Shown here in pieces: positions 5,467 through 27,322 of a stretch of DNA of 40,897 bases; position 1 is the first letter of the stretch; the number at the start of each line of letters is the position of its first letter. Source of the stretch: Clostridiales bacterium (lineage in GTDB: Bacteria; Bacillota; Clostridia; Christensenellales; Borkfalkiaceae); assembly GCA_015055945.1 (NCBI GenBank), contig SVHH01000009.1, positions 1 through 40,897 on the forward strand, given 5' to 3'. The translations under genes and the position numbers were made by a program. The notes beneath the pieces are model-generated. The model searched no databases. It was not told where the DNA came from and saw only the letters and a program-made list of their open reading frames with translations.

Positions 5467-8160
5467 TTGATACCACACAATGAAAGTCAAGAAACAGTTT
5501 TGACAAACCTACAAGTTGATGCGGCAAGCGGTTTAACTTCTAGCCAAGTAGCCGAACGCAGAGAAAAGTACGGCGAGAACAAACTCAAAGAACAAAAGAA
5601 GAAAACAATGATTCAACGTTTCTTTGAACAGTTCCAAGATGCAATGATTATTATCTTGCTTATCGCTGCGGCAGTTTCTCTCGGCGTTGCCATCTACACC
5701 ACCGTTTCAACTGGACACTTTGACGTTGTTGAAATGATTGAACCTTTCCTTATTCTTGCAATCGTGTTGCTTAACGCTATTATGGGTGTTGCGCAAGAAA
5801 GCAAGGCGGAAAAAGCGCTTGAAGCGTTGAAGAATATGTCTGCTCCCCACGCTCGCGTTATTCGTGACGGCGTTGAAAAGATTATTATGTCAGCAGAACT
5901 CGTTCCTGGCGACATAATCAAACTTGAAGCAGGCGACTTCGTTCCCGCAGATGCAAGACTTATTAAGAGTGTAAACTTAAAATCAGAAGAATCAGCACTT
6001 ACTGGTGAATCAGTTCCGTCTGAAAAGTTCGCTGACGCTCAAGTTAAAGAAAAAGCACCTATCGGCGACAGAACTAACATGGTTTTCTCTGGTTGCTCTA
6101 TCACCTACGGTACTGCTATTGCAGTTGTTACCGCAACCGGTATGGATACCGAAATGGGTAAAATCGCTGGTATTTTGGCTAACGAAGAAGAATCTAAAAC
6201 GCCCTTACAAGAAAAACTTGCTAAACTCGGCAAAATGCTCGGTTTCTTAGTTCTTGGTATTTGTTTCGTAATGTTTGCCGTTCAACTTATTAGAGACGGT
6301 TTCTCATTTGATAACATCATCGGCGGATTTATGTCTGCTATCTCTTTAGCAGTTTCTGCTATCCCTGAAGGTTTACCCGCAGTTGTAACTATCGTTCTTT
6401 CAATCGGCGTTCAACGCATGGTTAAAAGAAACGCTATTATTAGAAAACTTCCCGCGGTTGAAACTCTCGGTAGCGCGTCTGTTATTTGCTCAGATAAAAC
6501 TGGTACTTTAACCCAAAACAGAATGACGCTTGTTAAGACTTACGTTGACGGTGGCGAAATTATTGACTTTAACGGTGCTGCTGAAGGTGAAACTTACAAA
6601 ATGCTTTGCTACGGTTCACTTTGCTGTGATGGTAAGGTTGTATTTGAAGACGGTGCTGAAAAGCACATCGGCGACCCCACTGAAACGGCTATCGTTCTCG
6701 CAGCGCACAAGGCTGGCGGCGTTCAAGACGAATTAAACTCTCAAAGCCCCAGAAAAGCAGAACTCCCCTTCGACTCTGACCGTAAACTTATGACAACGGT
6801 AAACGTTATCGACGGTAAAATCATCGCAATCGTTAAAGGTGCTTTCGACGTTATCGCTAAAAAGACTATTAAGGGTGATATTGAAAAGGCAAAGGTTGCT
6901 TGTGATGAAATGAGTTCAAACGCGCTCCGCGTTTTAGCAATTGCTTATAAAGAACTCAAAGAAGTTCCCGCTAACCCCACTTTTGAAGAACTTGAAAGTG
7001 AACTTACCTTCGTAGGTTTAGTTGGTATGATCGACCCGCCCAGACCCGAATGTAAAGTTGCGGTTGCTACTTGCCGTAAGGCTGGTATTAAGCCCGTTAT
7101 GATTACTGGCGACCACATCGTTACCGCTACTGCTATCGCTAAAGAACTCGGCATCTTCGTTGACGGCGACAAGGCTATCACTGGTGCTGAACTCGATGAA
7201 ATGAGCGATGAACAACTCGATAAAGAAGTTAGGAACATCTCCGTTTACGCGCGTGTATCACCCGAAAACAAGATTAGAATTGTTAAAGCATGGCAAAAGA
7301 AAGGCGAAGTTGTTTCAATGACTGGTGACGGCGTAAACGACGCACCCGCTCTAAAGGCTGCCGATATTGGTTGCGCTATGGGTATCACTGGTACGGACGT
7401 TGCTAAGGGTGCTGCTGATATGACTCTTACCGACGACAACTTTGCAACCATCGTTGAAGCGGTTAAAGAAGGCCGTGGTATTTTTGAAAACATTAAAAAG
7501 GTTGTTGGTTTCTTACTTTCAACTAACCTTGCTGAAGTTTTGGTAGTATTTATTTCAACCGTAATTTTAGGCTCGCTTATCCCCGAACTCGGCAACCCGT
7601 TCATTCCTATCCAACTTCTTTGGATTAACCTTGTAACCGACTCATTGCCAGCAATTGCACTCGGTAAAGAAGCAGTTGAAAGCGACGTTATGTTTAGAAA
7701 GCCCAATCCTAAGAACGAAAGTTTGTTTGCTCACGGCTTGGCTGCTAAGATTTTCTTAAACGGTATTCTTTTAACTATTACCACTTTGGTTGGTTACGTG
7801 CTCGGTGCTTACTTCATGCCCCACGAAGCAGGACATCTTAACCACGCAGCAGGTAGCACGATGGCGTTTATGATTTTGGCGTTAAGCCAACTCGTTCAAG
7901 CGCTCAATATGAGATCTTCACACTCACTCTTCAAAGTTGGTTTCTTCTCAAATGCTACTATGAATTTATCACTTCTTATCTGTACGGCACTCACTGCGGT
8001 TGTTATGTTTATCCCTGGTGTAAACAACGTATTTGATATGATGTATCTTGACTGGTGGTTATACCTTGTAGGTCTTGGTCTTTCACTCTTCCCCATACTC
8101 GTTATGGAAATTGCAAAGGCTGTTGGCTTTATCAAGCATCATCACCCTGTTAAAAAATAA
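5467..8160 (+). CDS. P-type cation ATPase (Ca2+/Mn2+ type IIA)
   Basis: An 897-residue membrane pump that uses ATP to move divalent cations, most likely out of the cell. An N-terminal cation-ATPase domain starts at about residue 10. The A-domain TGES is at 179, PEGLP in TM4 at 300, the phosphorylated Asp343 in DKTGTLT, the hinge TGDGVNDAP at 619, and NLVTD in TM6 at 721-725. PEGLP plus NxxTD is the ion-site pattern of SERCA/PMR1-like pumps, which carry Ca2+ and often Mn2+. The start is TTG with GGAG 7 bp upstream. The manganese riboswitch in front argues for Mn2+ as a physiological substrate, or for Mn-responsive regulation of a mixed pump. The length is normal for the family and no motif is missing. 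Confidence 0.94.
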   Translation: MIPHNESQETVLTNLQVDAASGLTSSQVAERREKYGENKLKEQKKKTMIQRFFEQFQDAMIIILLIAAAVSLGVAIYTTVSTGHFDVVEMIEPFLILAIVLLNAIMGVAQESKAEKALEALKNMSAPHARVIRDGVEKIIMSAELVPGDIIKLEAGDFVPADARLIKSVNLKSEESALTGESVPSEKFADAQVKEKAPIGDRTNMVFSGCSITYGTAIAVVTATGMDTEMGKIAGILANEEESKTPLQEKLAKLGKMLGFLVLGICFVMFAVQLIRDGFSFDNIIGGFMSAISLAVSAIPEGLPAVVTIVLSIGVQRMVKRNAIIRKLPAVETLGSASVICSDKTGTLTQNRMTLVKTYVDGGEIIDFNGAAEGETYKMLCYGSLCCDGKVVFEDGAEKHIGDPTETAIVLAAHKAGGVQDELNSQSPRKAELPFDSDRKLMTTVNVIDGKIIAIVKGAFDVIAKKTIKGDIEKAKVACDEMSSNALRVLAIAYKELKEVPANPTFEELESELTFVGLVGMIDPPRPECKVAVATCRKAGIKPVMITGDHIVTATAIAKELGIFVDGDKAITGAELDEMSDEQLDKEVRNISVYARVSPENKIRIVKAWQKKGEVVSMTGDGVNDAPALKAADIGCAMGITGTDVAKGAADMTLTDDNFATIVEAVKEGRGIFENIKKVVGFLLSTNLAEVLVVFISTVILGSLIPELGNPFIPIQLLWINLVTDSLPAIALGKEAVESDVMFRKPNPKNESLFAHGLAAKIFLNGILLTITTLVGYVLGAYFMPHEAGHLNHAAGSTMAFMILALSQLVQALNMRSSHSLFKVGFFSNATMNLSLLICTALTAVVMFIPGVNNVFDMMYLDWWLYLVGLGLSLFPILVMEIAKAVGFIKHHHPVKK

Positions 8161-8173
8161 TCTTAACTAAACT

Positions 8174-8207
8174 AAAACGCCGACGGAAAATTCCGTCGGC
8201 GTTTTTT
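8174..8207 (+). terminator. Rho-independent terminator after the ATPase gene
   Basis: A near-perfect 15-bp stem built on ACGCCGACGG / CCGTCGGCGT with a short loop and a run of six T on the plus strand. The A-rich 5' side may also let it work on the minus strand, after the gene ending at 8241. Confidence 0.9.
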
Positions 8208-8240
8208 CTTTTGCAAAAATATTAAGGAAAAACTTTTGGT

Positions 8241-8939
8241 TTAATTAAGCATATTTTCTTCTCCGCCAACCTTAAAAAACTTAATGGCGTTTATTCCTTT
8301 AGGGTCGCCGTAAAGGGCGGTGCAAAGGCGCAAATTCTCCTTTTCTAAGGCAGATACGCGCTCTTTTAATTCTTGATTTTCTTTTCTTTCTCGCATAGCA
8401 ATTTTGGCAACCATTGCGTTTATTTCTTCTTTTAATCTTTCAAAGTTTTCTTCAGAAATAACTTGTTTTTCACACTTTGCGGAAAGTTTACTTATATCGT
8501 AACCTTCCATTTCTAACTGCTCGGTAATAGTTTTAATGAGTTGCGGTTTTTGTTTAACGGCGTTTCTAAACTTGTTTTGATACCTAAGCGCAACTTTAGC
8601 ATCGCCTTCAGCAAGTTCCATAATGCAACTTCTTGCAGACCTTCCAAAAGTTTTTGCAATAAGTACTTTTTTTATCAACGCGCTTTCTTCTTGCTCGTCA
8701 AACTCTATAATTTTACCAACCGACAAAGGCTTGCCGTCAAGATATCTTTCACAAAAATCGCTGTCTTCCGCGCTTCGTTTTGCAACCGCGTAATATAGGT
8801 TTCTAACAGTACCCTTTGCCTTTCCAAACTTTTCACCGTAACTTTCAAAAACTTTAGAGAGCGACTCTCCCCCGCGAGTTTTTAAAAACTCAGCCAAGCC
8901 TAAAACGTCCTTTTCCTTATACCCGTAAATTTTATCCAT
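8241..8939 (-). CDS. Myb/RsfA-like coiled-coil protein, putative regulator
   Basis: A 232-residue soluble protein with no certain assignment. Its N-terminus (about residues 1-60: KEKDVLGLAEFL, then KFGKAKGTVRNLYYAV) resembles the Myb-like helix-turn-helix of RsfA-type prespore regulators, where a GR.PGAVRNxYY pattern is common. The C-terminus (about 150-220) is a leucine-heptad coiled coil (LKERVSALEKENLRL), also as in RsfA. The middle is a helical, Lys/Arg-rich segment of unknown role. The start at 8939 is chosen for AGGAG 7 bp upstream; an earlier in-frame start would add 14 basic residues. It is divergent from the gene at 9015 across a 75-bp gap. The many sporulation genes in the window make a sporulation role plausible, but this is inference. 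Confidence 0.6.
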   Translation of the reverse strand: MDKIYGYKEKDVLGLAEFLKTRGGESLSKVFESYGEKFGKAKGTVRNLYYAVAKRSAEDSDFCERYLDGKPLSVGKIIEFDEQEESALIKKVLIAKTFGRSARSCIMELAEGDAKVALRYQNKFRNAVKQKPQLIKTITEQLEMEGYDISKLSAKCEKQVISEENFERLKEEINAMVAKIAMRERKENQELKERVSALEKENLRLCTALYGDPKGINAIKFFKVGGEENMLN

Positions 8940-8974
8940 ATTCTTGCTCCTTTTTCTTTTTTGTAATAATCTTA

Positions 8975-9002
8975 TTGACATAATAAAGTAAAATTATACA
9001 TA
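8975..9002 (+). promoter_or_regulatory. Possible promoter for the gene at 9015
   Basis: TTGACA at 8975-8980, then a weak TACATA (8997-9002) after 16 bp. The leader would be very short. The same gap must hold the promoter of the divergent gene, for which only a TATAAT-like -10 (8998-8993, minus strand) is visible. Confidence 0.4.
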
Positions 9003-9014
9003 GATATAAGAGAT

Positions 9015-9956
9015 ATGTATTATTATTTTTCAAGCGAAACACCCGCCGCCATTAAAGTAAACGGTGCTTTTTGCGGAATATTATCGAAAGAATTAAAACA
9101 AATTAATATCGACAGCCTTTCACCCTTTATTGAACTGTGTCCCGTTTCAACCTGTCAGCCGTGCACTAACTTTTTACTTGACAATAACTTTTTTTGCTGC
9201 CCACCCAAGAGTGTTATTTTGACCGATCTTAAAGGTGGATACTTAATTAAGTTTTCTCCACTAATTTTAAGTAGCGAATTTAAGATTATTGAGCAGCACA
9301 AATCTAGTAGTGCGCTAGTTACGGTATTCAATGAAAACGGCTTAAAACTTTCTATTGAAACCCCAAAAGACTTTTACGCGGAAACGGTTAATTTAAACAT
9401 AAACCGAGCGGAAATCAAAGAATTTGACATCAACGGCGTACATTTTATAAGCGTACTATTTGAAAACGAAAATAAGTTTTTAGCCATCTATGAAGTAGGC
9501 AATAATATTAGAAAAATCTTTTTTAGACAGGTTAACGAATACTGTACGGACGGCGAGTTTTTCACTGTGGAAAACTTTTGTGATATAGCAAAGCATCAAG
9601 TTAAAACCTTTTGGGAATATAAAAACGGTGCTTTTTGTTCTTCAAAAAAAGAGTGTTCGCAGAATAAAGACTTTAACGCCGACAACTTAAATGAAAAACT
9701 TATCTCTTACAGTTTTTTAGAAGAATACTTAGCGGGATGTGAGTGGGATAAATTTTTATGCGGCAGCGTTTTAAAAAACAAAAACCGCTTAAGCGGTTTT
9801 TTAGGAAAATTCATAGGTATAATGCCACCCCCGCGATTTAGATGCGGTGATGAAATAGGGTTAATATATACTAAATGCGACAACTTATACTTTGTAGAGT
9901 ATTTTAAGTTTTGCTTAGAGAATAGAAAAATTTGTAATATTATAAAGTGCGAATAA
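9015..9956 (+). CDS. Hypothetical protein, cysteine-rich N-terminal half
   Basis: A 313-residue protein I do not recognise. There is no signal peptide or membrane segment. The N-terminal 60 residues look beta-rich (AIKVNGAFCGILSKE) and include clustered cysteines (ELCPVSTCQPC, then FFCCPP), which could bind metal or form disulfides. The remainder alternates short strands and charged turns. The start ATG has only a weak AAGAG ribosome site. It is divergent from the Myb/RsfA-like gene and convergent with the cyclophilin-like gene, so it is probably monocistronic. A perfect 20-bp palindrome with a T-tract lies within the coding region at 9781-9802 and looks like a terminator inside the gene. Confidence 0.7.
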   Translation: MYYYFSSETPAAIKVNGAFCGILSKELKQINIDSLSPFIELCPVSTCQPCTNFLLDNNFFCCPPKSVILTDLKGGYLIKFSPLILSSEFKIIEQHKSSSALVTVFNENGLKLSIETPKDFYAETVNLNINRAEIKEFDINGVHFISVLFENENKFLAIYEVGNNIRKIFFRQVNEYCTDGEFFTVENFCDIAKHQVKTFWEYKNGAFCSSKKECSQNKDFNADNLNEKLISYSFLEEYLAGCEWDKFLCGSVLKNKNRLSGFLGKFIGIMPPPRFRCGDEIGLIYTKCDNLYFVEYFKFCLENRKICNIIKCE

Positions 9957-9958
9957 AA

Positions 9959-9995
9959 AAAGAAGTTAGGACATCCTAACTTCTTTAATTTTTTA
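9959..9995 (+). terminator. Bidirectional terminator between convergent genes
   Basis: A 13-bp perfect stem (AAAGAAGTTAGGA / TCCTAACTTCTTT) with T-rich sequence on both sides separates the genes ending at 9956 (+) and 10004 (-). Confidence 0.85.
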
Positions 9996-10003
9996 TTTAA
10001 GTT

Positions 10004-10885
10004 TTAAGCGATAGATGCTGAAACAACTTTTGCAGCGATTACGGTTTCACCGTTAACTGAAGCAACGGGAACAGTAATGGTGTGCTGGTTGTAGCAAACT
10101 TCTTGTGAGCCTTCAGCAGTGAAAATGCTAGTAGTTGCAACAAAATCACTTTCCTTAACAACGTGCTTGGTTAAACCGTGGTTGTTGTCAGGTTGGGTTT
10201 CGTCATACTTGCCAGTGTAGTAAACAACGTATTTTTCAACACTGCCTGAAGTCATAGACTTAGAAATTAAGTCGAGCGCGTGTTTGTTGTCTTCATTATC
10301 CATATCGATTTGAGCAAAAATGCAGAACCAACCGTTATAACCAGAAAGTGCTGAATCAGAATCACTTACAGGAATAAACCAAGTTGCTCTACCAGAGTTC
10401 ATAGTTGCGTTACTGGTATCATAAGAACCATCGTAAGCATACCAAGTTCTCCATAAACCGATAGAACCTTTTTTAGCAAGAAGGTTTGAACCTGAAACGC
10501 CACCGCGTTCAAACTCGCCTTTTACTTGGGGCATAATCTTTTCTTGTGCTTTAATTGACGTACCGTCAACAAGGAAATCGCCCAACATTACTTGGTTAAC
10601 AAAATTCGTTTGCTTATAGAAAACGGTGTTGTTATAGTAACCTTGTTTAACGTACTTGGTTACGTTTTCAACCGTTTTGGGCGCAAAGTGTCCGTAAAGG
10701 TCGATAGTTAAAGTAACGTTTTCAAAGCCAACATCAACTTCTTCTTCCGTTTGTTCATAGTTATAAACGGTAATGTTAAGTTTAATTTGAGTAATGTCTT
10801 CAGCGCAGCCTGCCATGCTAAAGCAAGAAACAATAAGCAAAGCGCTTGCGATAAGAAGGCTGAGAAGTTTCTTAAATTTCTTCAT
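10004..10885 (-). CDS. Cyclophilin-like lipoprotein (degenerate peptidyl-prolyl isomerase)
   Basis: A 293-residue exported lipoprotein. A signal peptide (KKFKKLLSLLIASALLIV) ends in a lipobox SMAGC, so it should be anchored to the outer face of the membrane. The body matches the cyclophilin layout: a strand VTLTIDLYGHFAPKTVENV (like the family's APKTVxNF), then YNNTVFYKQ in place of FHRV, then KGSIGLWRT in place of GxxsMAR. The usual catalytic Arg and the FFI motif region are altered (ATWFIPV), so isomerase activity is doubtful and a binding role may be more likely. The start at 10885 is chosen for the signal peptide and a GGAG 6 bp upstream; an upstream in-frame start adds 32 residues that overlap the promoter. 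It is monocistronic, between two terminators. Confidence 0.8.
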   Translation of the reverse strand: MKKFKKLLSLLIASALLIVSCFSMAGCAEDITQIKLNITVYNYEQTEEEVDVGFENVTLTIDLYGHFAPKTVENVTKYVKQGYYNNTVFYKQTNFVNQVMLGDFLVDGTSIKAQEKIMPQVKGEFERGGVSGSNLLAKKGSIGLWRTWYAYDGSYDTSNATMNSGRATWFIPVSDSDSALSGYNGWFCIFAQIDMDNEDNKHALDLISKSMTSGSVEKYVVYYTGKYDETQPDNNHGLTKHVVKESDFVATTSIFTAEGSQEVCYNQHTITVPVASVNGETVIAAKVVSASIA

Positions 10886-10952
10886 ACTATTCTCCGAGCA
10901 ATAATTTACTAATCTAAGGGCATACCCCTCTAATTTAAAATAATATACTATT

Positions 10953-10981
10953 ATTTTACTTGAAAATAAAAGATTTGTCAA
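10953..10981 (-). promoter_or_regulatory. Sigma-A promoter for the cyclophilin-like lipoprotein gene
   Basis: On the minus strand, TTGACA (10981-10976), a 17-bp spacer and TAAAAT (10958-10953), giving a leader of about 60 nt. Confidence 0.8.
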
Positions 10982-11082
10982 TGCTTATAAGCACTTTACT
11001 TTCTCTTTTGTTATATTTTTTTGCTAATTTTGCACAAACAATATAAACTAGAGTTAAACTAAAGTTTATTTGTAATTAAAAT

Positions 11083-11115
11083 AAAAATCCGCAAGATAAT
11101 ATCTTACGGATTTTT
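11083..11115 (-). terminator. Terminator of the ribosomal protein operon
   Basis: A stem of AAATCCG...AAGATA against TATCTT...CGGATTT with one mismatch, and T-tracts on both strands. It lies after rplL and before the lipoprotein promoter. Confidence 0.8.
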
Positions 11116-11142
11116 TGTTTGTTTTTGTTTTCTAAATAGTAA

Positions 11143-11511
11143 TTATTCAGCAACAACAGTAGCGCCTGCTTCCTTGAACTTAGCGATCATAGCATCTGCT
11201 TCTTCTTTGGTTGCGTTTTCTTTAATTACTTTGCCGTTTTCAGCAAGAGCCTTAGATTCAACAAGACCTAAACCGGTTGCTTCCTTAATAACTTTGATAA
11301 CACCAATCTTGTTGCCACCAACTTCTTTAAGAACTACCTTGAATTCGGTCTTTTCTTCAGCAGCAGGTGCTGCTTCAGCAGCGGGAGCAGCAACTGCAAC
11401 TGATGCAGCAGCGCTTACGCCAAATTCTTCTTCTATTGCTTTAACGAGTTCGTTAAGTTCCATAACGCTCATGCCTTTAATTTCTTCTAACATTGCTTTA
11501 ATATCTGCCAT
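11143..11511 (-). CDS. rplL: 50S ribosomal protein L7/L12
   Basis: A 122-residue stalk protein of the large subunit that recruits translation GTPases. The N-terminal dimerisation helices ([22 protein letters not shown]) are followed by an Ala/Glu-rich flexible hinge (about residues 35-52) and the conserved C-terminal domain with KTEFKVVL and [19 protein letters not shown]. The ATG has AGGAGG 8 bp upstream. It is the last gene of the rplK-rplA-rplJ-rplL run, 50 bp after rplJ, and a terminator follows. Length and domains are normal. Confidence 0.98.
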
Positions 11512-12050: not shown

Positions 12051-12205
12051 TTGATTACCTCCTTGTTTTAATGAAAAAGCCCTTGTACACCAAAACGGAA
12101 TACAAGGGCATAAAAACACTAGTTCTTATACTAAAATTTCCGCCTCGGTGGGTTTGTGATAAATCACAATTACATATACCTACTGTCTTGGGCTATTTAA
12201 TTTAC
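12051..12205 (-). ncRNA. L10 leader (ribosomal protein autoregulatory leader with attenuator)
   Basis: The 155-nt untranslated leader of rplJ has the conserved L10-leader blocks on the minus strand: AGACAGTAGG, then ACCCACCGAGG, then an AACTAGT segment. It ends in a terminator-like hairpin, GCCCTTGTA / TACAAGGGC (12109-12101 and 12087-12079) followed by five U. In Firmicutes such leaders bind L10-L12 and attenuate transcription. It starts at the predicted transcription start from the promoter at 12212-12240. Confidence 0.88.
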
Positions 12206-12211
12206 TATGTT

Positions 12212-24422: not shown

Positions 24423-24501
24423 AAATCCTCCTTTATGTAACCTTGAAAAAAAGGAAAGATTTACATTAAGTTTGCGCAATTAAAAACTTTTTATACCAAT
24501 T

Positions 24502-24534
24502 AAAAACGCTCGGTTTTACGCGAGCGTTTTTTTG
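24502..24534 (-). terminator. Terminator at the end of the SipW cassette
   Basis: AAAAACGCTCG / CGAGCGTTTTT (24502-24512 and 24521-24531) with T-runs on both strands. It isolates the cassette from sigG. Confidence 0.88.
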
Positions 24535-24538
24535 GCTA

Positions 24539-25675
24539 TTATTTTAACGATGCTACAACTTGTTCAATTGTTCTACCATCTGCAATATCGGCGTTGCCTT
24601 TAGTTTTCCATGTATCAGTATTGAACGAACCACCCGTGTTAAACATAGTACCACCACTATAAGCGTTTATAGTGGCCGTGCCTTGATACATACCACCAAT
24701 TTGAGTCCAGGTTTGACCGTCGTCAGAAGAAGTAAATACAGTAGCGTAAACCACAGCCGTTTTATTAGATTCTAAAAATCCTTTTTGTAAAGTGTCCGTG
24801 GTCAAATAAATGGTCATTTCATTACCATTAGCATCACCCGTGTTAGTGTTGTCATCAAGGTTTTCACGCTTAATCATTGCCTTAACGGGAACTTCTTCTC
24901 CATTAATATTCATCTTTAAATTGCCACCAAATAAATTACCAAGTAACTCAACGTCATTTGTAGACGCGCCCGAAACGTTGCCGATATATGAGCTATTATG
25001 ACGGTTGTTTTCGTCGTATTTATCCATTTGGTCAATAAGTTGGTTATAAGAGTCTTTTGCAACCACGTTATTAAGAATTGCCTTAAATTGCGTAAGTGCG
25101 CCACTTACTGCAATCTCACCTTCTTCGGGCAATTCTTCAGCAATTATAAATTCATAAAACATTACGGAGTTAAGAACTAAATTGCTTCTATTTGAAGTGT
25201 TTGAAAAAGCAAACTTTACGTCAAAAGTAAGATATTCTCCCTTAGGAACTCTATCTTCACGCGCTAGACCAATCAAGGTGTAGCCTATATTGTTATTATC
25301 GTATTGTTCGGAAGTATATTTAACCGCGTTAAAAGCGTAATCGTCAGTAGTTGAAGAGTTATAAACGGTTATAGACAGAGTTATGCTTGAATAAGCGTTA
25401 TTTAAAAGCGTTTTGGTAGTGCTTAAATAAGTGCTTTGATACCCGTTAATAATTACTGAGCCGTCGCCAGATTTCTTCTCAACGTTTGTGATGTAAACGA
25501 CCGTGCTTGCGGTTGACGGAGCAACCCATTTATATTCGGTAATACCCACGTTAAAGTTTGTGTCTTGATAATTAACAGTAGAATCAACGGTGTATTTCCA
25601 AGTTGCGTAAACGCCAGGCACAGACATAACGGCAACGAGCAATATCAAAACGAAAAGCCTAAACTTAAGTTTCAT
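24539..25675 (-). CDS. Exported protein with SipW-type signal peptide (TasA/camelysin-like), second copy
   Basis: A 378-residue secreted protein. A hydrophobic signal (KFRLFVLILLVAVMSVPG) ends in VYATWKYT, the aromatic motif of SipW-dependent signal peptides, and the same GVYATW motif begins the mature part of the first exported protein of this cassette. The body is Thr/Ser/Asn-rich, beta-strand-like and without cysteine, as in TasA-type fibre proteins, and is about 1.7 times longer than the first copy. The start at 25675 is chosen for AGGGGG 8 bp upstream; an in-frame start 33 bases earlier is less likely. It follows sipW at 57 bp without a terminator and is closed by one. The function as matrix or surface fibre is inferred. 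Confidence 0.75.
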   Translation of the reverse strand: MKLKFRLFVLILLVAVMSVPGVYATWKYTVDSTVNYQDTNFNVGITEYKWVAPSTASTVVYITNVEKKSGDGSVIINGYQSTYLSTTKTLLNNAYSSITLSITVYNSSTTDDYAFNAVKYTSEQYDNNNIGYTLIGLAREDRVPKGEYLTFDVKFAFSNTSNRSNLVLNSVMFYEFIIAEELPEEGEIAVSGALTQFKAILNNVVAKDSYNQLIDQMDKYDENNRHNSSYIGNVSGASTNDVELLGNLFGGNLKMNINGEEVPVKAMIKRENLDDNTNTGDANGNEMTIYLTTDTLQKGFLESNKTAVVYATVFTSSDDGQTWTQIGGMYQGTATINAYSGGTMFNTGGSFNTDTWKTKGNADIADGRTIEQVVASLK

Positions 25676-25732
25676 TAGCGCTACCCCCTTCTTCAGTAGA
25701 CGAAGCATCGCCTTTCGTTTCAGTTTCGGGAA

Positions 25733-26500
25733 CTAGTAAGGCCATTCTTTCTTAAGTTTGTTTAATTTACCATCAACGATAGGACTGATAATAACAGCAC
25801 CAACAACTAAAAGCATGCAAAGCCAACCTGCGGGAGATTGCATAAAGAGAACAAAAGAGCCAATAAATGCAACTTTTTCACCCCTATAAATACCTTTCAT
25901 TTGTTCGTATTTAACAGGGAAACGGTCAGCCGATTCAACAGCATCGCCTTGCAACAAGAACCATCTTTCATTAGGGTGTCTTTCATTAGGCTCTTCAATA
26001 CCTACTATTCTATGAACGATAAGTATTTCGTCAACTTCGTAAACGACGATATCATAAAGTTTAAGTTCTTCTTCTTTGGGAAGTTTATAGGTTAAAATAA
26101 GGTCAAAAGTTTGAATTTGATCGTTTAATTGATTTTCAGTTAAATAAGTGTTTTTAGAGTGCTTTTTAGCCATTGAGCCAGTTTGAACTACTCTGTAAGT
26201 AGGAACTGAATCAAAATAAACTTCTTGAGTGCAGTTTATATAAATAGAACCAGAAAAAACAACCGCAAAAATGGCAACCAAAATAATCGTCAAAGCGTAA
26301 TCACACACTTTGCCGAGTTTTGATTGTTTTTTAAGTTTTGATTTTTCATATTCACTTATAATTTTATCGTCTTCTGCCCCAAGTCTAATGAGTTTTGATT
26401 GCATTTTAAATATAATTGCAATACAAAATATGGAAAGACCTGTAAGTAGAACGAAAACTATAAGACACAATATGAAAGTATATATCTCATAATTAGTCAT
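25733..26500 (-). CDS. sipW: SipW-type (ER/archaeal-type) signal peptidase I
   Basis: A 255-residue membrane signal peptidase. Two N-terminal membrane segments (about residues 8-32 and 68-88) and one near the C-terminus (about 225-242) flank the catalytic region. The nucleophile is Ser109 in VVQTGSMAKK. The general base is His163 in ILIVHRIVGI, not the Lys of common bacterial enzymes. The box LQGDAVESADRFPV (about 184-196) supplies the conserved acidic residues. This Ser/His type is SipW, which processes TasA-like substrates, and two such substrates flank it. The ATG at 26500 has GGAAG 7 bp upstream. A hairpin upstream may lower its expression relative to the substrate gene before it. Confidence 0.92.
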   Translation of the reverse strand: MTNYEIYTFILCLIVFVLLTGLSIFCIAIIFKMQSKLIRLGAEDDKIISEYEKSKLKKQSKLGKVCDYALTIILVAIFAVVFSGSIYINCTQEVYFDSVPTYRVVQTGSMAKKHSKNTYLTENQLNDQIQTFDLILTYKLPKEEELKLYDIVVYEVDEILIVHRIVGIEEPNERHPNERWFLLQGDAVESADRFPVKYEQMKGIYRGEKVAFIGSFVLFMQSPAGWLCMLLVVGAVIISPIVDGKLNKLKKEWPY

Positions 26501-26513
26501 TTTTTTCTTCCGT

Positions 26514-26555
26514 CTAAAAAAAGCACATAAACCAGCCGTATGCAAATACGGCTGG
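26514..26555 (-). terminator. Hairpin/attenuator between the first exported protein and sipW
   Basis: A perfect 10-bp stem CCAGCCGTAT / ATACGGCTGG (26555-26546 and 26541-26532 on the minus strand) with a 4-nt loop. Nine bases of mixed sequence and then seven U follow. It may terminate part of the transcripts, so that substrate is made in excess over the peptidase. Confidence 0.65.
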
Positions 26556-26589
26556 CTCATACGTTTGTTTTTGTTGTTTAATCAATAAA

Positions 26590-27263
26590 TTAGTTAACAG
26601 TACCGTCGGTTACACGAACAAGAATGTTACCAACAAGACCTTCTTTAACACCAGGATGTCCTTCAGGATCGTACTCAACGTGACCACCGAAAACGTCGTG
26701 TTCATGCTTGGTATCAAGAACGAAAGTTTGTGAAAGGCTAATCATACCTTCCAAATCTGTTTGGTTTAAGGTGTAAGTGAAAGTGCCGTTTGCTTCTTTA
26801 GTCCAAGTGAAAGGTTTATCAAGAGAACCGTTAGCAGTATTAGAGAAAGTGAAAATGTCAACGGGAGCAGCATTTTTACTAAAACTTCCGTCAGCACCTA
26901 CTCTATATTGCATAGGAACGGTAGTGTCGAAGTAAAGTTCAGAGAGAACACCGTTTTCTTTAATTTCCTTAGGTGCGGTTTCAGCAGGGGTAAAGGTTAC
27001 TTTCAAGAAAATAGCTGAATCATTGTTGCTTGCGAAAACGAGTTTTGCTTCGTGATCTGTGTTTGCTTGGTCAACGGTAAGAACCAAGTTAGATTCTACC
27101 TTATAAGTACCGTTTGCGCCAGTAAGTTCTGCGTCTGCAATGGTAACTTTTGTTTCTGCAAAAGCGTCTGCGATGTCGTTAGTACCAGCATATTGCCAGG
27201 TTGCGTATACGCCACCGATGGTTAAGCACATGAAAAGTGCTACGAGTAAACTGAGTTTTTCAT
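26590..27263 (-). pseudogene. Exported TasA/camelysin-like protein with a one-base frameshift after the start codon
   Basis: The ATG at 27263 has AAGGAG upstream and is followed by five A, after which its frame stops at codon 8 (TAG). With six A the frame would read a full signal peptide, KKLSLLVALFMCLTIGG, then the SipW-type motif VYATWQY and the 200-residue mature part, which is open down to 26590; the restored protein would be 224 residues. The intact frame from an internal ATG at 27231 would keep only about ten residues before the motif and has no ribosome site. The mature part is rich in Thr, Asn and charged residues, with beta-rich character and no cysteine. A sequencing error, a real mutation or slippage on poly-A are all possible; I mark it broken with caution. 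It is the first gene of the SipW cassette. Confidence 0.75.
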
Positions 27264-27293
27264 AAAAATTCTCCTTTATAAAAAAGTACCTAC

Positions 27294-27322
27294 ATTATAC
27301 CCCCGCAGTATACTTTTGTCAA
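27294..27322 (-). promoter_or_regulatory. Sigma-A promoter for the SipW cassette
   Basis: A perfect TTGACA (27322-27317), a 17-bp spacer and TATAAT (27299-27294) on the minus strand. It predicts strong vegetative-type expression, not a sporulation sigma factor. Confidence 0.85.

Follow-up and report, generated by a model that had tools for sequence, protein, structure and literature searches.

The DNA analysed here is a stretch of 40,897 nucleotides from a Clostridiales bacterium of the Borkfalkiaceae (assembly GCA_015055945.1, contig SVHH01000009.1), referred to below as the window, and it contains, between the sporulation sigma genes sigE and sigG, a cassette of three genes that encode an exported protein (A), a SipW-like signal peptidase and a second exported protein (C). 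We consider it probable that this cassette is a vegetative and exchangeable operon for a SipW-dependent surface fibre, self-contained and not part of the sporulation programme, to which it is on the best reading tied only by its position. That it specifies a surface system is well supported by its predicted anatomy and its conservation, and it is reasonable to infer a two-component fibre of A and C.

Anatomy and recurrence of the cassette

All features of the cassette lie on the minus strand. It opens with a sigma-A promoter at 27322-27294 that agrees with the consensus at 12 of 12 positions (TTGACA-17-TATAAT), followed by the coding frame of the beta-rich protein A (27264-26590), whose SipW-type signal ends in GGVYATW. 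A terminator-like hairpin with an 18-pair stem and a T run comes next (26563-26524; fold of the gap, z -5.09), then the gene for the peptidase of 255 aa (26500-25733) and that for C (25675-24539), a beta-rich protein of 378 aa and of the type we term C1, with a SipW-type signal ending in PGVYATW. A further terminator-like hairpin, 3' of C and before sigG, falls within 24495-24536 (fold z -4.88; absent from the consensus-scan list). The initial annotation had described such a unit between sigE and sigG, with its own sigma-A promoter and terminator and with a Ser/His peptidase of SipW type flanked by two exported proteins sharing GVYATW, and the 12/12 promoter, the two hairpins and the two signals confirm this; its statement that the exported proteins lack cysteine also holds, there being none in the mature part of either.

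The same gene order and signals recur in dozens of genomes, so the cassette is more than a product of chance, and as a conserved operon the unit itself deserves more than the earlier label of a possible neutral insertion. Of the 44 genomes of the genus, 18 contain a relative of the window peptidase, or 17 after removal of G020, whose partial SipW match was missed by the family profile. A scan of public genomes yielded 72 loci; setting aside L166-L168, three short matches in haloarchaea, leaves 69; the public loci and the genus set share 16 genomes. For 52 of the 69 loci a gut sample from goat, sheep, deer, yak or buffalo is named. An A-like frame precedes the peptidase gene in 66 of these loci (67 by BLAST); the three that gave no A frame (L120, L146 and L164) lie on contigs that begin fewer than 260 bases from the peptidase gene, and the A records of L111 and L133 are truncated by contig starts. 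A C-like match is present 3' of the peptidase gene in 61 of the 69, a count taken from BLAST because the rule-based choice of C picked partly wrong genes, for example in L118. Our literature search, which covered titles and the openings of abstracts, returned nothing describing an A-SipW-C cassette.

The peptidase combines serine and histidine, instead of a Ser/Lys pair, with conserved aspartate, which places it among the SipW or endoplasmic reticulum (ER)-type signal peptidases I. Ser109, His163, Asp186 and Asp192 are invariant in all 17 homologues, and the positions of the Ser109/His163/Asp186 type are presumably catalytic, as in SipW and ER-type peptidases generally. The window protein matches the models NF046067 (E value 1.5e-11) and TIGR02228 (3.6e-8) while remaining under their curated cut-offs (44.2 of 190 bits and 33.4 of 51.85 bits, respectively); both models are matched by all 17 homologues at E values up to 0.01. 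A profile built from the family extends to SEC11A of the signal peptidase complex (E 0.0021).

Some relatives carry at the C-terminus of the peptidase a domain of about 115 residues, in 0 to 4 copies and with at least one copy in 24 of the 69 loci, a lower bound obtained with two repeat queries only. The carriers include the peptidases of L100 (2959-4635), L139, L105, L116 and L108; the peptidase of the window has no such repeats. The repeat also occurs on other membrane proteins, with matches in 36 of the 44 genus genomes and none in the window genome, and our reading of the topology suggests that it is cytoplasmic. No trusted match to the tail was found in Pfam, NCBIfam or PDB; the best Pfam candidate, Med12 (E 6e-5), was under its cut-off and was set aside.

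In protein A the signal is much better conserved than what follows, with a mean identity of 65% over residues 1-25 versus 27% for the remainder (46 sequences), a pattern expected of a signal held in place by the demands of the peptidase and an exposed part free to drift. Two aromatic residues just past the cleavage region are kept, Trp23 in 44 of 46 sequences and Tyr25 in all 46. The AlphaFold2 model of A is that of a confident beta protein (mean predicted local distance difference test score, pLDDT, 86.4) with a loose N-terminal stretch, and this stretch in the modelled monomer is compatible with a fibre formed by donor-strand exchange. The C-termini of A and C have neither LPXTG nor a hydrophobic tail, which makes anchoring to the cell wall or membrane by such means unlikely. 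For C of the window, the structure model (mean pLDDT 66.1) is too weak for a claim about its fold. Partners in some other relatives belong to a second type, C2, with a PPC/ColH-like domain (PF04151 in 6 of 24; 3jqw, E 0.00066), and kinship between C1 and C2 is not demonstrable by hhalign (probability 14.7%).

Transcription signals and proposed mode of action

A start codon of A, in frame and before the signal motif, was found by rule in 59 related loci, and in 37 of these a sigma-A promoter matching the consensus at 11 or more of 12 positions lies no more than 150 bases from A (19 being perfect, 12/12); eight of 67 loci, the window included, were dropped from this count since their A start could not be placed by the rule. 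At the same threshold no promoter was found in the 59 stretches before the peptidase gene or the 56 before C; of 1180 random stretches 15 had one, and of 1180 shuffled ones 7, with the qualification that some C starts are misplaced and that random positions may hold real promoters. Of 51 related cassettes, 47 have a gap between A and the peptidase gene that folds better than shuffled sequence (z below -2), gaps shorter than 45 bases (8 of 59) having been left unfolded.

A layout of promoter, A, hairpin, peptidase and C could yield much A and little of the peptidase and C. During ordinary growth, RNA polymerase carrying sigma-A would start at the consensus promoter and produce much message for A, and in the window many transcripts would probably end at the hairpin after A, with a minority continuing into the peptidase and C. 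Both A and C would be exported via the Sec pathway and their GVYATW-type signals cut by the cassette's own SipW-like peptidase. A, as a small protein with a predicted beta-sandwich, most likely assembles extracellularly into a polymeric fibre or matrix, and C would be its scarcer partner, perhaps as anchor, nucleator or tip. The unit of A, SipW and C would be passed on, lost and probably transferred en bloc among gut Clostridia, residing in this genus mostly beside sigE and sigG.

Possible exchange and position beside sigE and sigG

Identities of A and of the peptidase rise together (Spearman 0.49, 78 pairs). The peptidase is only weakly correlated with sigE (Spearman 0.28; 121 of 2000 Mantel permutations as high) and not at all with a set of four host genes (Spearman 0.03; 728 of 2000 permutations), the tests comprising 16 genomes and the four-gene comparison being affected by missing data. 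Genome G011 is 83% identical to the window genome over the four-gene set and only 48% identical in the peptidase, and it has a different type of C. In G003 the corresponding values are 73% (from partial genes) for the four-gene set, 84% for sigE and 76% for the peptidase, and C is unlike that of the window (29% over 134 residues). Both contrasts fit exchange of a surface locus as a block or part-block. The incongruence between peptidase and host thus suggests, and does not prove, exchange between lineages; independent old copies of the cassette are a possible alternative. A comparable system is the switching of the S-layer cassette in Clostridioides difficile, where divergent alleles of surface proteins are swapped as a block between conserved flanks, whereas for the present cassette recombination within the sigE and sigG flanks is only a suggested route.

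In most spore-formers, spoIIGA, sigE and sigG are contiguous. In the window the order on the minus strand is spoIIGA, sigE, A, the SipW-like peptidase, C, sigG and ylmC/ymxH. The upstream neighbours are spoIIGA (28868-28041; PF03419 over its cut-off at E 1.6e-35, TIGR02854 at 96.1 bits and below its cut-off of 209.55) and sigE (28081-27368; NF006158, 372.5 bits, cut-off 339). Downstream lie sigG (24422-23649; NF006071, E 1.1e-107 and 359.5 bits, just below the cut-off of 372) and a gene for a sporulation protein of the ylmC/ymxH family (23574-23194; TIGR02888, 53.2 bits, cut-off 44.2).

Eleven of the 17 genus cassettes adjoin sigE, sigG or both. The cassette lies between the two genes on one contig in six genomes (G000, G004, G008, G013, G022 and G029), with another gene also between sigE and A in G004, and in G030 it spans two contigs from which the same arrangement can be deduced. 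It is found just upstream of sigG in G003, G012 and G019, where sigE is elsewhere, and between sigG and ylmC in G011. The other six cassettes are at different places (G002, G015, G017, G021, G024 and G025). Of the 69 public loci, 12 adjoin sigE or sigG (10 of these being genomes of the genus set), 28 are not, and 29 have flanks too short to judge. An unbroken sigE-sigG junction is seen in ten genomes of the genus, nine of which lack the cassette (G001, G006, G009, G020, G031, G033, G036, G037 and G043). The tenth is G002, in which the cassette is on another contig; this is the arrangement under which, by the initial annotation's own reckoning, the functional link falls. The sigE/sigG site is therefore a true bias in the genus and not a requirement.

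The junction also accepts other inserts, since a gene resembling isopropylmalate or isocitrate dehydrogenase (named by eye) is found there in G004 and G010 (L083:8951-10012, L054:6357-7418). Besides the genes of the cassette, sigE, sigG and their usual neighbours, no family represented in at least four loci occurs within 4 kb of the peptidase gene in more than three loci.

The distribution of sporulation genes does not follow that of the cassette. The marker spoIVA is present in 36 of the 44 genus genomes and the cassette in 17; among the high-quality genomes the figures are 18 of 18 and 7 of 18 (8 if G020 is counted), so that, as far as gene content tells, the cassette is not needed for sporulation. 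A true sigE is present in 40 of the 44, the other four showing only a weaker match that we take for sigma-K, and sigG passes an E value of 1e-90 in 216 of 251 genomes of the family. The link to sporulation that had been raised as a possibility from the position of the cassette is not borne out: the cassette is elsewhere in G002 and in five further genomes, many relatives without it retain sporulation genes, and its promoter has the sigma-A consensus.

Known SipW systems and competing explanations

In Bacillus subtilis the SipW peptidase cleaves TasA and TapA (PMC9674648), and TapA is far scarcer than TasA (PMC10151520). The cassette resembles tapA-sipW-tasA in that a SipW-type peptidase stands between two exported substrates for which a major and a minor partner are proposed; it differs in the failure of TasA models to recognise A or C and of the camelysin profile to recognise mature A, in that the likely major protein comes first here and last there, and in a promoter of sigma-A consensus as opposed to the control by SinR described for the B. 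subtilis operon (PMC9674648). The sipW-bsaA operon of Clostridium perfringens likewise has a clostridial SipW, which is needed for export of a self-polymerising protein of about 23 kDa, and a predicted terminator after bsaA, the major subunit, accompanied by one short transcript and a longer one formed by read-through (PMC7395162); a two-component system is found there and none in the cassette. As in sipW-calY of B. cereus, two exported substrates accompany a specific SipW (PMC10151520), but CalY proteins are camelysins and A and C match no camelysin model. By analogy with these systems, A may be regarded as a candidate fibre or matrix subunit and C as its putative partner.

It might be that A and C belong to a true matrix operon of the TasA/camelysin family and have diverged too far for the family models, as the initial annotation had implied in matching them to proteins of this type, and this we consider quite unlikely. 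A SipW peptidase with two exported beta-rich proteins would suit such an origin, as would the retention of Trp23 and Tyr25 after the cleavage region; in TasA the donor strand is located right after the signal. TasA is described as polymerising through an N-terminal donor strand of residues 28-38 (PMC9674648). A single member of the 46 A sequences touches the BsaA-family model, at an E value of 0.03. The Pfam M73 (PF12389) and NCBIfam TasA (NF046066) models did not match A or C of the window at E values up to 1, and neither did the SipW-cognate-signal model TIGR04088. M73 was also absent from the Pfam matches of the 46 A and 24 C2 members, and the TasA and SipW-cognate models from the NCBIfam matches of the 46 A members (for A, E values up to 0.1 in both cases). 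Yet the same family models recognise a second SipW operon in the window genome (L179, G000:C4:186000-204000, at 7434-11450), which has two camelysin-type substrates with GTTFAWF signals: PF12389 matches it over the cut-off, and TIGR04088 does so for both substrates. An hhalign comparison of mature A with 10 camelysin-type proteins of the genus gave a probability of 0.4%, and Foldseek returned no significant match to the model of A, TasA not being among the fold matches listed, which is not in itself evidence of absence and leaves a jelly-roll like that of TasA a possibility for A. Membership of A and C in the TasA/camelysin family was thus found by none of the Pfam, NCBIfam and PDB profile searches, hhalign or the fold search.

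A role for the position itself, which we also judge unlikely, would have read-through from spoIIGA and sigE boost A early in sporulation, with A coating or glueing sporulating cells or spores and the hairpins insulating sigG. The preponderance of copies adjoining sigE and sigG speaks for it, and TasA was first described as associated with the spore coat (PMC9674648). In L101 (9319-15143), which belongs to another lineage and has sigE beside an ftsZ-like gene (by eye), the cassette is again 3' of sigE; by our own rough estimate, such a case would be expected about 0.1 times by chance among some 29 placements outside the genus site. The L101 cassette is convergent with sigE, however, which makes read-through impossible there, the G011 cassette is downstream of sigG, and in L109, one of seven gaps looked at, sigE and A are separated by a terminator-like hairpin; the cassettes at other sites, the unbroken junction of G002 and the sigma-A consensus count against this explanation as well. 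A mobile or selfish insertion that landed by chance at the junction of sigE and sigG and serves no function appears highly improbable. The same three-gene unit does occur at many chromosomal places and its peptidase is poorly congruent with host genes, but no mobility gene was recognised by eye among the families present in at least four loci near the cassette, no plasmid, phage or viral-contig match was obtained (with flanks too short to judge in 29 of the 69 loci), and the conservation of promoter, active-site residues and signals implies selection.

Several observations weigh against a vegetative surface-fibre operon, and one concerns the window copy itself. The ATG of A at 27263-27261, behind AAAGGAG, is one base out of frame, and the reading frame that it opens closes after seven codons; a start at 27231, where the first ATG in frame lies, would remove nearly all of the signal peptide. 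The window copy may therefore be unable to make A. The A start of L108 (G025) is out of frame in the opposite direction at the same run of A bases just after the start codon (27256-27263 in the window). These two loci were added by hand to the 59 starts found by rule, so that a figure of 2 in 61 is a biased rate, and the table leaves out six loci that have an A frame. In three more loci (L098, L135 and L142) A is interrupted at a later point, and no start can be recognised in L149. The out-of-frame starts may reflect a switchable A, decay or errors of assembly in metagenome-assembled genomes. In addition, no promoter reaching 11 of 12 matches precedes 22 of the 59 A genes. In the gap after A, a scan for a hairpin with T immediately behind it was positive in 41 of 67 loci and negative in the other 26, and only 14 of the 35 stronger hairpins have at least five T in eight bases; the gap is therefore generally structured, but termination after A is not general. 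The 104-base gap from sigE to A in the window has no terminator-like hairpin, so read-through from sigE into A during sporulation is possible. Neither A nor C has a sequence match or a significant fold match to a known fibre protein, and the bias of 11 in 17 towards sigE and sigG is not explained if the cassette is merely parked there.

If the surface-fibre operon is what we take it to be, uncultured gut Clostridia with small genomes would hold a widespread and so far unnamed SipW-dependent surface system, different from TasA/camelysin and present alongside it in a single cell, with clear candidates for the major subunit (A) and its partner (C). Nearness to sporulation sigma genes would then, by itself, be no proof of sporulation control, and the repeated, uncharacterised tail on a signal peptidase would be a testable oddity. 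A bolder proposal, which we offer tentatively and with more doubt than confidence, is that of a second, non-camelysin class of SipW-dependent fibres in ruminant-gut Clostridia, with its own divergent peptidase that sometimes bears up to four copies of an undescribed cytoplasmic domain, maybe coupling secretion to the cell interior; lineages would exchange the cassette at a preferred sigE/sigG site, much as at a serotype locus, and A would be switchable through its run of A bases.

Elsewhere in the window, a large open reading frame resembling a serine recombinase (named by eye) lies at 320-1990, near the contig end, and a ribosomal protein L10 leader RNA is present at 12064-12210.

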